Origin: Ruminococcus sp.
Lineage (GTDB): Bacteria; Bacillota; Clostridia; Oscillospirales; Ruminococcaceae
Reading direction: 5' to 3'
Length of the DNA: 64,000 bases
Assembly (NCBI GenBank): GCA_021770655.1
Contig: JAETQO010000012.1
Coordinates: 1-64,000, forward strand
In this document: positions 59,377 through 62,801 of the stretch, in pieces
Numbering within the stretch: the stretch's first letter is position 1
How the letters are laid out: the number at the start of each line of letters is the position of its first letter
Program-made: the position numbers and the translations under genes
Notes under the pieces: model-generated
Told to the model about the DNA's origin: nothing
What the model saw: only the letters and a program-made list of their open reading frames with translations
The model's database searches: none

Positions 59377-59656
59377 AAAAAAGCGTACCGGAATGATCCG
59401 ATACGCCAATTCTTTAAGTAATGGCCGCCTTGCCGTCGCACAGTCGATAAACCCGCTGTTAAAAGCAGGGTGGGTAAAACAGCCTGAAAGCTTCACGCTC
59501 CCTTCGTCCGTATCCGAAAAAGCGGCTCGAAAGCGGCTTCGGGCGGGAGGTCTGCAATCCCTTTCCAGAGTCTGAATCCCTTTTTAGATGTGTTGGATTT
59601 ATAATAACCGTGCTTGTTCGCACAAGGCAGTACATTTGCTTTCATTACATAGTATA
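59377..59656 (-). ncRNA. ssrS: probable 6S RNA
   Basis: Minus-strand transcript of about 270 bases with its own consensus promoter (TTGATA 59679-59674, 17 bp, TATACT 59656-59651) and a terminator (GCGTATCGG/CCGGTACGC then TTTTTT at 59377-59400). It folds as one long rod of 202 bases closed by GCCTTG (59628-59623) and CAAGGC (59432-59427). A large internal bubble follows, then CTGGAAAG/CTTTCAG, CTCCC/GGGAG and CCGAA/TTCGG stems. The small CCCTGC...GCGGG hairpin on the 3' side of the bubble is a 6S hallmark. The call rests on architecture, not a covariance search. Confidence 0.6.
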
Positions 59657-59747: not shown

Positions 59748-60095
59748 TTAGGAAAAATGTGTGCCGTGATCATGACCGCAACCGCAGTCACAATCGTCAT
59801 CGTCGTCAAACTCGAACATATCCTCAATACGCTCCATAAACATATTTCCTATTTTCTCATACTCCTCATCGTCTTCGATAGAAGCAAGAATTTCTTCGTT
59901 GTTCTCATCAAAGGTCGATTTCAGTATCACAACATCGCCGGAATCCTCCAGCGCCTCCTCTCCGTCCTCAAAATAAGGAGTAAGAGCATAATACTTCTCG
60001 TCCTCATATTCCATTGCGTCAAGAAGCTCAAAAGTCTGCTTATTACCGTCCTCATCCTCAAGCTCATAAAGATCCGGCAGAAACTCGTTATCCAT
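59748..60095 (-). CDS. DUF1292 acidic protein
   Basis: 115 aa, extremely acidic (Asp/Glu runs throughout), matching DUF1292: DEDGNKQTFELLDAMEYEDEKY at the start (core DGNKQTFELLDAMEYEDEKY). The C-terminus is DCDCGCGHDHG, a possible metal-binding tail. AGGAGGAATATT supports the start. Function unknown. Promoter at 60199-60227 faces away from the minigene array promoter. Confidence 0.85.
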   Translation of the reverse strand: MDNEFLPDLYELEDEDGNKQTFELLDAMEYEDEKYYALTPYFEDGEEALEDSGDVVILKSTFDENNEEILASIEDDEEYEKIGNMFMERIEDMFEFDDDDDCDCGCGHDHGTHFS

Positions 60096-60285: not shown

Positions 60286-60314
60286 TTGACAAATCACAAA
60301 ATGTGTGGTATATT
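60286..60314 (+). promoter_or_regulatory. sigma-A promoter of the minigene array
   Basis: TTGACA (60286-60291), 17 bp, TATATT (60309-60314), a full-strength consensus. Confidence 0.85.
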
Positions 60315-60355
60315 ATAGTCAAGGAAAAAGAAAAGAGAACAAACCAATAAGGCTG

Positions 60356-60460
60356 ATGTTCTTATTAAACGGAAAACGACCCGGACGGTACAGTAACGAT
60401 TTTAAGAGAGCGGACGCCAAAGGATATGTTTCAAAAATTTTCCTTATATCACAGGTATAG
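60356..60460 (+). CDS. 34-residue basic peptide ORF at the head of the array
   Basis: Opens MFLLNGKRPGRYSNDFKRAD and ends LISQV. It contains many Lys/Arg. The ribosome site is only AAGG with a short gap, and the ATG sits in the right arm of an AGAACA/TGTTCT hairpin. May be real or chance. Confidence 0.35.
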   Translation: MFLLNGKRPGRYSNDFKRADAKGYVSKIFLISQV

Positions 60461-60557
60461 AGAAGGACAAAGCAAATACTTGCCACATGGTGCAAAAAGT
60501 TCGATCAAGGCAGGCATACTCTTCGGTACCTAATATGATAAAAAAGGAGCGAGTCCG

Positions 60558-60614
60558 ATGGACGTATCTGAAATCCAGACGAGTATCCAAAGGCTCGGCA
60601 GTTTCTTAAAGTAA
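60558..60614 (+). CDS. 18-residue peptide, array unit 1
   Basis: MDVSEIQTSIQRLGSFLK with AAAAAGGAGCGAGTCCG just upstream, the best-formed start motif of the array. Amphipathic helix pattern. Confidence 0.55.
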   Translation: MDVSEIQTSIQRLGSFLK

Positions 60615-60786
60615 GCAGGATCAGGACTCAGACGTAAGGGCTGGCAGATCTAAACTATATAAAGGTTACATAAAGAAGAAATTGCAGGGTCTAACGGAAA
60701 TAATCACTAACAGGTCACTGCAAGATGAGGATACTCGGACAATTACAATTGAATAATTCGTACAGTTTATTATAAGGAGCGGTTTT

Positions 60787-60822
60787 ATGATTCGTTTCAC
60801 AAGGCTTACGAATAAATTTTAG
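60787..60822 (+). CDS. 11-residue peptide, array unit 2
   Basis: MIRFTRLTNKF after ATAAGGAGCGGTTTT. Its start ATGATTCGTTTCACAA recurs out of frame in the unit near 61229. Confidence 0.5.
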   Translation: MIRFTRLTNKF

Positions 60823-60837
60823 ACAGGAGTGTTTCCA

Positions 60838-60873
60838 ATGCACAATTTCAGCTTTTCAGAGGTAAACAAATAA
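60838..60873 (+). CDS. 11-residue peptide, array unit 3
   Basis: MHNFSFSEVNK after GACAGGAGTGTTTCCA. Confidence 0.5.
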   Translation: MHNFSFSEVNK

Positions 60874-60952
60874 ACTGAAAGAGTGAGTCCGATGTAAAAA
60901 TCAGAAATCATTTCACGATGTAAATAAAATAAATTTCGAGGAGTGGTGCATT

Positions 60953-60985
60953 ATGAAAATGCACAAAAGGATTTTGAATATCTGA
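60953..60985 (+). CDS. 10-residue peptide MKMHKRILNI, array unit
   Basis: AGGAGTGGTGCATT precedes the ATG. The start sits in the loop of GTGCAT...ATGCAC. Nearly identical to the peptide at 61095. Confidence 0.6.
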   Translation: MKMHKRILNI

Positions 60986-61094
60986 ATGACAGGAGTGAGT
61001 CCACCAAGAAATTTACGAGCTATATGCTCTTTTGCCGATTAAATTTACCGAATTAAAATTTTCTGAATAAAAACAACTGAAGGAGTGGTGCGTT

Positions 61095-61127
61095 ATGAAA
61101 ATGCACTCAAGGCTTTTGAACATCTGA
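61095..61127 (+). CDS. 10-residue peptide MKMHSRLLNI, array unit
   Basis: AAGGAGTGGTGCGTT precedes the ATG. Hairpin GTGCGT/ATGCAC is kept by a G-U pair relative to the copy at 60953. Confidence 0.6.
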   Translation: MKMHSRLLNI

Positions 61128-61676
61128 AAGTTGGAGGTGAGTCCGCCGGTTACTTCAGTTAAGTCTGTGTTTCAGCAGACATAGGACTTTTTCAAATTTG
61201 AGCGAAAGGCGATAATTCCGATGGATAAATGATTCGTTTCACAAATTTATTTTATTTTTCAGAAAGGTGTTAAGTCCAATGGCACGTTAAGAAATTTTCT
61301 GGGGCATTACTTAATATTTTGAAAGGAAATAAATCCGATGGAAAGATAATTTTCTTGGCTGCGATTATTTTTACCGAAAGGAAATAGATCCAATGGAATA
61401 GCTTAATGTTTTGCGGACAGAATTTCGCACGAAAGGTGTGAGTCCAAAATACAGTTTAACTTTGGTTATACGAAATCTTTTGAAGGGTGTAATACCAATG
61501 GCAGAATAAAATTTCGGATTTTTCCGAATCGACGAACACAAATTTGTTACGAAAGGTGCAAGTCCAATGGCTTAATTATCAGAGGGTTTTCCTCATTAAC
61601 TTTTACGTTTTAATTTTGAAAATTGGAGTGAGTTCCGATGTACTGAACGGTACGCGAAATTTATCTGAAAATACAT

Positions 61677-61706
61677 AGAGCCGACAGCGTTTGTCGGCTC
61701 TTTTTG
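61677..61706 (+). terminator. terminator of the minigene array
   Basis: AGAGCCGACA, GCGT, TGTCGGCTCT, then TTTTTGTT. A canonical strong terminator. Confidence 0.95.
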
Positions 61707-61773
61707 TTAAGACATAAAAGCTGTGTTATTGTGTACCGATCAATCATGTAGTCGGGGAAAATAATTATTATGC

Positions 61774-61832: not shown

Positions 61833-62801
61833 CTATATAATATTTTCAAGAAAAGCAATGGTCTTGGCGTCATATGTAAGATCCTGAGCCTGCATATCCT
61901 CTTCAAGCTGCCACAGCTTTGTTACCGCAAAAACCGATGAAACAAAAAACGGCTGGCTGTTCAGATAGCCGAGAGGTATAACTGCCGGAGAATCCCCTGT
62001 CTGCTCACTCAGACGCTTTACGCGGGCAAGCCTTGCAAGATTTGCAGTTCCGGCATATTGACCCTCCGGAAGATTGTTGGCCGCATCGCCTTTGGCAAGC
62101 TTGGCAAAAAAGCCCTTCGCCTGTGGAGAAAACGCCATGACAGGAAAATTATTTTTCTTATACCATTGAAATTCCTTGGTGTCCATACACACAAGAGTAT
62201 CATCGCCGAAAGTCTCTGCACTTGCATGAGCAAGGCTGTAATTTATCTGGCTGATGCGGATAGGCTCGAGCCCGTTTGACTCGGCAAAGGCATTAGCCTC
62301 TTCTATTCTCTTGGTCGTCCAGTTGGATACTCCGATAAAGTGTATCTTTCCGCTCTTGTAAAAATCATTAAGCACCGGCATTATTTCCTCCACAGGAACT
62401 TTCGTGTCGTCCCGATGCAGAAAATAGACGTCGATATAATCCACGCCCAATACAGACAAGCTTTCCTCCAGATCTGCGGTAAGCTCTTCCCTGCCAAGCC
62501 TGTTAACGTCCATATGACCCATTAGCGGGTGTCCGCCCTTTGTCGCAATGCAGATCTTGTCACGGCAGTTTCTCGCTTTGAGCCAGCGTCCGATAACTCC
62601 CTCGCTGGCATTATGACCTTCCTCAAGCCAATCGCAGTATACTCGTGCCGTATCTATGCACCAGCCGCCAAGCTCTGCATACTTATCGAGAAATTCAAAA
62701 TAAGTATCGTCGCAGTCACTTCTCTCAAAACCTGCGGCACCAAAGGTCAATGCCGGGATCTTTATCTCATATTTATCATTTTTAAGAGTACAGCTTAACA
62801 T
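61833..62801 (-). CDS. aldo/keto reductase family oxidoreductase
   Basis: NAD(P)H-dependent carbonyl reductase, 322 aa, TIM barrel. The catalytic Asp and Tyr lie in DTARVYCDW, the Lys in ATKGGHP and the His in YFLHRDD. The cofactor-binding part contains GVSNWTTKRIEEANAF and AFSPQAKGF. Substrate cannot be assigned; neighbours give no pathway. GGGGGAATT precedes the start. Confidence 0.9.
   Translation of the reverse strand: MLSCTLKNDKYEIKIPALTFGAAGFERSDCDDTYFEFLDKYAELGGWCIDTARVYCDWLEEGHNASEGVIGRWLKARNCRDKICIATKGGHPLMGHMDVNRLGREELTADLEESLSVLGVDYIDVYFLHRDDTKVPVEEIMPVLNDFYKSGKIHFIGVSNWTTKRIEEANAFAESNGLEPIRISQINYSLAHASAETFGDDTLVCMDTKEFQWYKKNNFPVMAFSPQAKGFFAKLAKGDAANNLPEGQYAGTANLARLARVKRLSEQTGDSPAVIPLGYLNSQPFFVSSVFAVTKLWQLEEDMQAQDLTYDAKTIAFLENII

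Follow-up and report, generated by a model that had tools for sequence, protein, structure and literature searches.

An apparently non-coding locus in the genome of a Ruminococcus species, delimited by its own promoter and terminator (positions 60286-61709 of the window, the whole 64,000-nucleotide stretch of DNA that was analysed), may belong to a class of stand-alone, structured, ribosome-engaged RNAs that has so far gone unrecognised, on which ribosomes would start at many ribosome-binding sites (RBSs) and terminate within 0-18 codons. We give this reading roughly an even chance. Sequence comparison supports the view that selection acts on starts, in-frame stops and reading frames and, in the longer micro-ORFs, on the peptide, and that several helices covary; we infer that the element is transcribed and translated, with a function probably tied to ribosomes loading onto the RNA. 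Bacterial annotation misses long RNAs without long ORFs and ORFs shorter than ~20 codons, and the locus, conserved across a gut and rumen genus, is both.

The initial annotation had placed the two promoter boxes and the terminator hairpin with its T-run, from 61677, correctly (Table 1). The promoter is preceded by an A-rich tract, carries TGTGG ahead of the -10 box and is kept across the genus, where matches cover positions 1-54 of the query. It is similar to promoters of rRNA genes in R. bicirculans and G022 and of a tRNA operon in G052; an rRNA-type promoter was not retained as a candidate, the likeness being common to promoters of some other genes. The ORF list holds no ORF of more than 58 codons inside 60286-61709 on either strand, as the earlier statement that no normal ORF lies between the two signals implied. 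That the element is the leader or attenuator of a neighbouring gene is improbable in this setting: it has its own terminator (61677-61709), the long ORF that follows (61833-62801) runs towards it on the opposite strand, and the gene upstream is divergent. The attenuator-like trait is ORF 1, the first short ORF, which overlaps two helices; attenuation would further call for a mutually exclusive alternative fold.

The upstream neighbour belongs to DUF1292. In 33 of 34 elements (all but L073), a divergent ORF of 70 aa or more is found no further than 330 nt from the promoter, and this ORF is DUF1292 in 6/6 elements tested. The DUF1292 protein of the window ends in DCDCGCGHDHGTHFS. ORF 1 of several relatives has a Cys motif (CGSC, GCRC, SGCC, CGCAA) at or close to its end, perhaps by chance. 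Downstream of DUF1292 and on the same strand lies a 6S RNA candidate (59418-59636, minus strand; RF00013, 32.4 bits, E 7.7e-5, below the gathering score of 46.4), and a similar sequence was seen by eye at the same place in L047.

Sixteen Shine-Dalgarno (SD)-like units were counted in the element, 13 with an ATG and three without, matching the ~16 units and at least 12 ATGs first described. The three ATG-less units (60992, 61133, 61435) were chosen by eye from a motif list, and units resembling GGTGTGAGTCC (61435) are also present in L022, L027, L052 and L074; retention of the SD-like motif without an ATG suggests that part of the motif does not serve translation. The 13 ATGs have SD duplex energies between -5.7 and -9.8 kcal/mol, and none of their ORFs runs beyond 18 codons (in order 18, 11, 11, 1, 10, 10, 3, 3, 3, 2, 3, 2 and 2 codons). 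Eight are closed within three codons, and the peptides first listed for these near-immediate stops (M, MDK, MAR, MER, ME, MAE, MA, MY) were exact; the five ORFs of 10-18 codons had been under-described. In 200 runs of a first-order Markov null of the window element, SD-ATG ORFs of up to 20 codons numbered 2.0 on average (maximum 7), compared with 13 observed, and those of up to 4 codons numbered 0.5 (maximum 4), compared with 8.

Table 1. Features of the element and its neighbour, in window coordinates.
Feature	Position	Strand	Basis
DUF1292 gene (PF06949), divergent conserved neighbour	59748..60095	-	profile match
Promoter: TTGACA (60286-60291), 17-bp spacer, TATATT (60309-60314)	60286..60314	+	sequence
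Hairpin CGAGTCC (60550-60556) with GGCTCG (60592-60597), around ORF 1 start	60550..60597	+	alignment
ORF 1, MDVSEIQTSIQRLGSFLK-stop, behind AGGAGCGAGTCC; start codon in loop of CGAGTCC/GGCTCG	60558..60614	+	
Long-range helix, GAGTATCC (60581-60588, ORF 1 codons 8-11) with GGATACTC (60729-60736)	60581..60736	+	covariation
Covarying hairpin just past ORF 1 stop	60627..60644 (approximate)	+	covariation
ORF MIRFTRLTNKF-stop; has relatives	60787..60822	+	SD-ATG scan
ORF MHNFSFSEVNK-stop	60838..60873	+	SD-ATG scan
Start-stop unit ATG TAA	60892..60897	+	SD-ATG scan
ORF MKMHKRILNI-stop; ATG in loop of GTGCATT/AATGCAC hairpin (by eye)	60953..60985	+	
SD-like unit GGAGTGAGTCC without ATG	60992..61002	+	motif list
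ORF MKMHSRLLNI-stop, second module copy	61095..61127	+	SD-ATG scan
SD-like unit GGAGGTGAGTCC without ATG	61133..61144	+	motif list
Micro-ORF MDK-stop	61221..61232	+	SD-ATG scan
Micro-ORF MAR-stop	61279..61290	+	SD-ATG scan
Micro-ORF MER-stop	61338..61349	+	SD-ATG scan
Micro-ORF ME-stop	61393..61401	+	SD-ATG scan
SD-like unit GGTGTGAGTCC without ATG	61435..61445	+	motif list
Micro-ORF MAE-stop	61498..61509	+	SD-ATG scan
Micro-ORF MA-stop	61567..61575	+	SD-ATG scan
Micro-ORF MY-stop	61638..61646	+	SD-ATG scan
Intrinsic terminator, AGAGCCGACA-GCGT-TTGTCGGCTCT + T-run	61677..61709	+	hairpin with T-run

Selection on a start followed by a stop was assessed in the set of 34 elements, with SDs below -6.9 kcal/mol classed as strong and those from -6.9 to -5 as intermediate; identical downstream 12-mers were removed before frames were counted, and L035 and L039 are near-identical. 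At 218 distinct strong-SD ATGs, a stop within 3 codons is found 110 times in frame versus 44 in the +1 and 55 in the +2 frame, and a stop within 20 codons 211 times versus 162 and 155. No in-frame excess of stops within 3 codons exists at the 90 intermediate-SD ATGs (31, 31, 22), and none was seen at the 428 weak-SD ATGs (78, 81, 101) or at GTG or TTG codons of the 34 elements. Micro-ORFs with an SD below -5 and at most three sense codons after the ATG number 185, duplicates kept, and end in TAA (103), TGA (48) or TAG (34). MA-stop accounts for 71 of the 185, in all six spellings (GCA/GCT with TAA, TAG or TGA), and M-stop for 23 (20 ATGTAA, 2 ATGTGA, 1 ATGTAG). The stop codons interchange while the frame stays, which argues that selection keeps 'start, then stop'; a constraint on the RNA only is not expected to hold the frame while the stop codon changes. 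Selection for initiation with early termination, as first proposed, thus finds backing in the frame-specific stops, in the six MA-stop spellings and in the recurrence of this design beyond the genus and in a second family.

Ala (GCA/GCT) is the commonest second codon (71/185). PMC1397820 reports Ala at the second residue as more frequent in highly expressed proteins, in keeping with efficient starts. The same codon bears on a bar-like minigene array, in which ORFs of 1-3 codons would release peptidyl-tRNA, depleting tRNAs or, in certain conditions, slowing the cell. The good SDs in front of very short ORFs are what such an array would look like, but these Ala codons are not known to be typical of toxic bar minigenes, and the longer conserved ORFs would be left unexplained; we consider this quite unlikely.

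Exceptionally strong SDs were ruled out, the strength of the units falling within the range of ordinary genes. The 13 window units have a mean of -8.1 and a median of -8.2 kcal/mol, and the 42 ordinary ORFs of the window have medians of -9.65 (best start) and -9.45 kcal/mol (first ATG); micro-ORF SDs are weaker than the best starts of ordinary genes (p=0.016), with p=0.61 against first ATGs. This ordinary strength weakens the case for a pure high-affinity ribosome sponge and favours a sensor or modest sink over a high-affinity trap. Extended pairing to the whole 16S tail (complement GAAAGGAGGTGATCC) was suggestive by eye only and is not claimed, the recurrent GAGTCC being an imperfect complement; the Rfam model found no 16S in G000.

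Peptide-level selection is apparent in the longer ORFs. Sixty-four ORFs of ~10 aa (7-13 codons) were collected with an SD pattern, a length limit of 7-14 codons and a GGAG..CC behind the ORF. LNI forms the end of 43 of them, most often as MxM(H/R)x(R/K)(L/M)LNI-stop; synonymous changes occur, and lengths differ by whole codons. When these were filtered on the last two residues (57 of 64 pass, 44 distinct), the conservative change seen in frame 0 over the last six sense codons was reached by 0/300 column shuffles, with P of 0.90 and 0.26 for frames 1 and 2. The unfiltered set (50 distinct) likewise gave 0/300 in frame 0 and P of 0.96 and 0.40 in the others, and with the two filter codons removed, P was 0.0033 in the filtered and 0.0067 in the unfiltered set, whereas no other frame reached significance. 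Codons 2-11 of ORF 1 also change conservatively in frame 0 only (0/300 shuffles; the synonymous share reaches only P=0.05). The compared sequences are related, and the column shuffles keep this kinship in the coding and covariation tests alike. By these comparisons, the longer ORFs (18 aa; ~10 aa) are also under peptide-level selection, contrary to the initial annotation, which placed selection on initiation and termination 'rather than on peptide sequence'.

ORF 1 is, judging from its relatives, not simply a conserved peptide: its frame is shifted between groups by a one-base indel, and one RNA stretch of ORF 1 that L062 and L094 have in common is read in a different frame in each. This matters for the possibility that the element is a polycistronic mRNA for functional micro-peptides, with the ~10-aa cationic peptides and the ORF 1 product as output and the 1-3-codon ORFs as spacers or coupling sites. 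Selection on the longer peptides and the repetition of similar ones (43/64 ending LNI) speak for such an mRNA, whereas ORFs consisting of ATG-stop or of two codons (M-stop 23, MA-stop 71 of 185) would go unexplained, and neither the frame difference between L062 and L094 nor the covarying RNA structure agrees with it. On balance, we judge it unlikely.

RNA structure is concentrated around ORF 1 and in a repeated module. Across relatives, the ORF 1 spacer CGAGTCC pairs with a downstream GGRCTCG, so that the start codon falls in the loop; this hairpin is nearly invariant and hence shows little covariation. A duplex search returned similar partners in other families; for ORF 1 as a class, spacer and downstream partner had a mean of -11.5 kcal/mol, with p<=0.05 relative to shuffles in only 30% of 37. 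The long-range helix, which reaches ~140 nt downstream from inside ORF 1, pairs in 172/197 cells with 29 both-side changes, and 0/500 shuffles reach either value; slid by 1-3 columns, only 49-82 of 176-198 cells pair. In the R. albus-like group, the repeated module has a folding z of -13.7 relative to column shuffles (26 sequences), and its stems H3 and H4 covary, with 39 and 10 both-side changed cells and 0/500 shuffles each (25 modules, the divergent row L036 being dropped). The ATG-in-loop hairpin of the ~10-aa ORF pairs in 161/169 cells of this group with weak support, 18/500 shuffles reaching its pairing and 84/500 its both-side changes.

Three further pairings were discarded. A helix GGAGUG/CAUCCC after the ~10-aa ORF received no support from covariation; a GG...CC mini-hairpin at the spacer of every unit, dropped for the short units, often fails at its third pair, the MA-stop consensus pairing GG/CC only; and pairing of the spacer with a downstream partner as a rule for all units is absent in the very short ORFs, which pair no better than shuffles (mean z 0.04, n=126). 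The corresponding pairing of ~10-aa ORFs is weak (z -0.37, n=78; control z -0.01, n=150). With no excess pairing to downstream sequence, the very short ORFs thus seem to have open RBSs. The first description, in which everything between the units varies, is wrong for the linkers, which carry covarying helices and conserved ATG-less units.

Covariation, the conserved ATG-less copies and repeated GGA motifs in a number similar to that of CsrB are compatible with a protein-binding or structured RNA that offers the SD-like motif as a binding site, as in a CsrB-like sponge, with translation being incidental. We hold this to be unlikely, given the frame-specific stops, the interchange of stop codons and the coding signature. 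Moreover, CsrA was found in 0/19 genomes of the genus (g1; 70-99.8% complete, so that some are incomplete), with positive controls in E. coli, B. subtilis and T. maritima. A CsrB-type sponge, which requires CsrA, is accordingly unlikely, and the 'protein sponge' of the initial annotation loses its best-known candidate.

The element is widespread in the genus and reaches beyond it. Of 28 other genomes of the genus, 26 match a whole-element query at E <= 1.2e-7, and G017 and G025 are without a match; in another genus, G030 matches in the promoter region (E 4.2e-8), with micro-ORFs read by eye in L047. Carriers among the matches listed in a pattern scan include Ruminococcus bicirculans 80/3, R. 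albus 8, R. albus AR67 and Ruminococcus sp. Marseille-P6503, and, more distantly, L052, L062, L074 and L094 (bins titled Oscillospiraceae or Ruminococcaceae). That scan gave 108 stretches, of which 80 were listed, many being chance matches in unrelated phyla, and 17 of the 80 were oriented; to judge from their lengths, many of the remainder are contigs covered elsewhere in the set, and the others come from other phyla. We left out L033, L034, L038, L048, L049, L050 and L051 (partial, second piece or non-element), L053, L055, L068, L071 and L082 (other sequences), L054 (the L043 contig), and L060, L093 and L124 (no terminator found). The resulting set comprised 33 elements, with L052 cut by hand, and then L186 as the 34th; the limits of L182, L241, L242, L247 and L252 were also cut by hand.

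Searched with one mismatch in 147 genomes of the order, AAGGAGCGAGTCCNATGGR matched only the window and one lone MG-stop site; since this pattern found no distant relatives, the DUF1292 neighbour was used as an anchor. DUF1292 occurs at 78 places in 75/79 order genomes, and 50 of these loci were fetched and scanned. Seven contain the element, in 4/4 genomes of family f1 and 3/3 fetched of family f24 (a fourth, G059, lies outside the set), extending its range to further genera of the family and to a second family of the order. The other 43 loci, one of them a second DUF1292 of an f24 genome and ten partly read by eye, hold at most isolated motif matches; single matches at L169, L170, L244, L255 and L260 were judged isolated, that of L169 sitting in an apparent long ORF. 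In a different family, the minus strand of L166 (G135) carries, near its middle, AGAAAGGAGTGAGTCCGATGGGCTAG, a lone MG-stop micro-ORF ~80 nt upstream of an apparent ordinary gene start, perhaps a unit reused as a leader.

Genus elements have 9-17 starts each with an SD below -5 kcal/mol. Strong-SD micro-ORFs exceed the Markov null in the window, in three other genus elements tested, in L047 and in NL062; they are barely above it in L182 and L186 and no more than chance in L242, L252, L247 and NL052. L182 is a compact version of ~270 nt, with two ATG-less units and three ORFs (MYT, MFIATRIMKTQKKFK, MYS). The chance-level numbers in distant relatives suggest that the array is perhaps an elaboration within one branch and not the core; the ancestral core may consist of ORF 1, its helices and a few units, with the array elaborated in Ruminococcus and some neighbours. 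In L045 and related loci, a ~220-nt module made of a 10-aa ORF, two stems and an MA-stop occurs in as many as five copies, their number differing between species. G002 has two pieces sharing 5' domain sequence (C42 and C30; L037 and L038), one of which reaches a contig end, perhaps as an assembly duplicate.

Decayed genes or chance would account for the absence of a long ORF. Yet the element is conserved in several genera and in a second family, its stops are frame-specific and its helices covary, all of which argues that the locus is neither, and this explanation retains next to no credibility. The comparison with related genomes that the initial annotation had proposed, in which 26/28 genus genomes match, contradicts decay.

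How such an RNA might work can be sketched as follows. Its transcript would run from its own promoter to its own terminator, with ribosomes loading at many RBSs of ordinary gene strength and stopping within 0-18 codons. Since the RBS hairpin and the long-range helix overlap the ORF 1 coding region, a ribosome translating ORF 1 would have to open both, and fold and translation should be mutually exclusive. The very short ORFs would act as open start sites, at which a ribosome is loaded and released at once, and the stops would keep ribosomes off the structured linkers. Ribosome occupancy would then set the fold, and the RNA would report or absorb initiation capacity (free 30S subunits, initiator tRNA); the ~10-aa ORFs, with their conserved C-terminal LNI beside the stop, may add a stalling or slow-termination step. 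The output in trans might lie in a partner protein, in the withdrawal of ribosomes or in RNA stability. That initiation and immediate termination, repeated along the structured RNA and taking in the bare ATG-stop units, are themselves the function of this Oscillospirales RNA, an initiation gauge or sink beside DUF1292 across two families, is a tentative proposal that we would not yet back at even odds. If ribosome loading is the function, the element would embody a new mode of translation control, in which start and stop codons act although no protein is made. It would also lend itself to the study of start-stop initiation, of termination after very few codons and perhaps of stalling next to a stop, and DUF1292, a family without assigned function, would gain a candidate partner.

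The initial annotation knew of no described system with this layout, and neither Rfam nor the open-access literature yielded one, a weak absence as subscription papers lay largely outside that scope. A large structured-RNA survey of human microbiomes (PMC8040213) might list a fragment of the element; PMC8708949 concerns a minigene role in axe-txe; PMC7580957 concerns CRISPR arrays and is irrelevant. No Rfam family reached its gathering score in a search of the window (OLE, ROOL, GOLLD, raiA and all others); below gathering, the best E values were at chance level, 0.19 for the window element and 0.011 for the L074 element (a microRNA model on the terminator hairpin). Like OLE, ROOL, GOLLD and raiA, the ornate RNAs of Firmicutes, the element is long, structured and stand-alone; unlike it, none of these is known to carry an array of translated ORFs, and none matches it in Rfam.

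CsrB and RsmZ are stand-alone sponge RNAs with repeated GGA motifs, and the element resembles them as a stand-alone RNA with ~16 GG-containing repeats; most of its repeats, however, carry start and stop codons under selection, in a genus where CsrA was not found. With leader-peptide and uORF attenuators (erm, tna) it shares a short ORF over helices and a conserved C-terminus beside the stop, and differs in its many ORFs, its own terminator and the lack of a controlled, co-transcribed downstream gene in the window. In-frame purifying selection, the mark of small-protein mRNAs, was found for the ~10-aa ORFs and ORF 1 only. Dual-function sRNAs (SgrS, RNAIII) are also structured RNAs that encode a small peptide, one each, whereas the element has a dozen micro-ORFs, some of one codon. 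Phage lambda bar and other minigenes share the unit design of SD, ATG and a stop within 1-3 codons, which the very short ORFs of the element display. Bar sites are single minigenes in phage DNA; the element, in contrast, sets many starts on a dedicated, chromosomal, conserved and structured RNA, mixed with longer ORFs.
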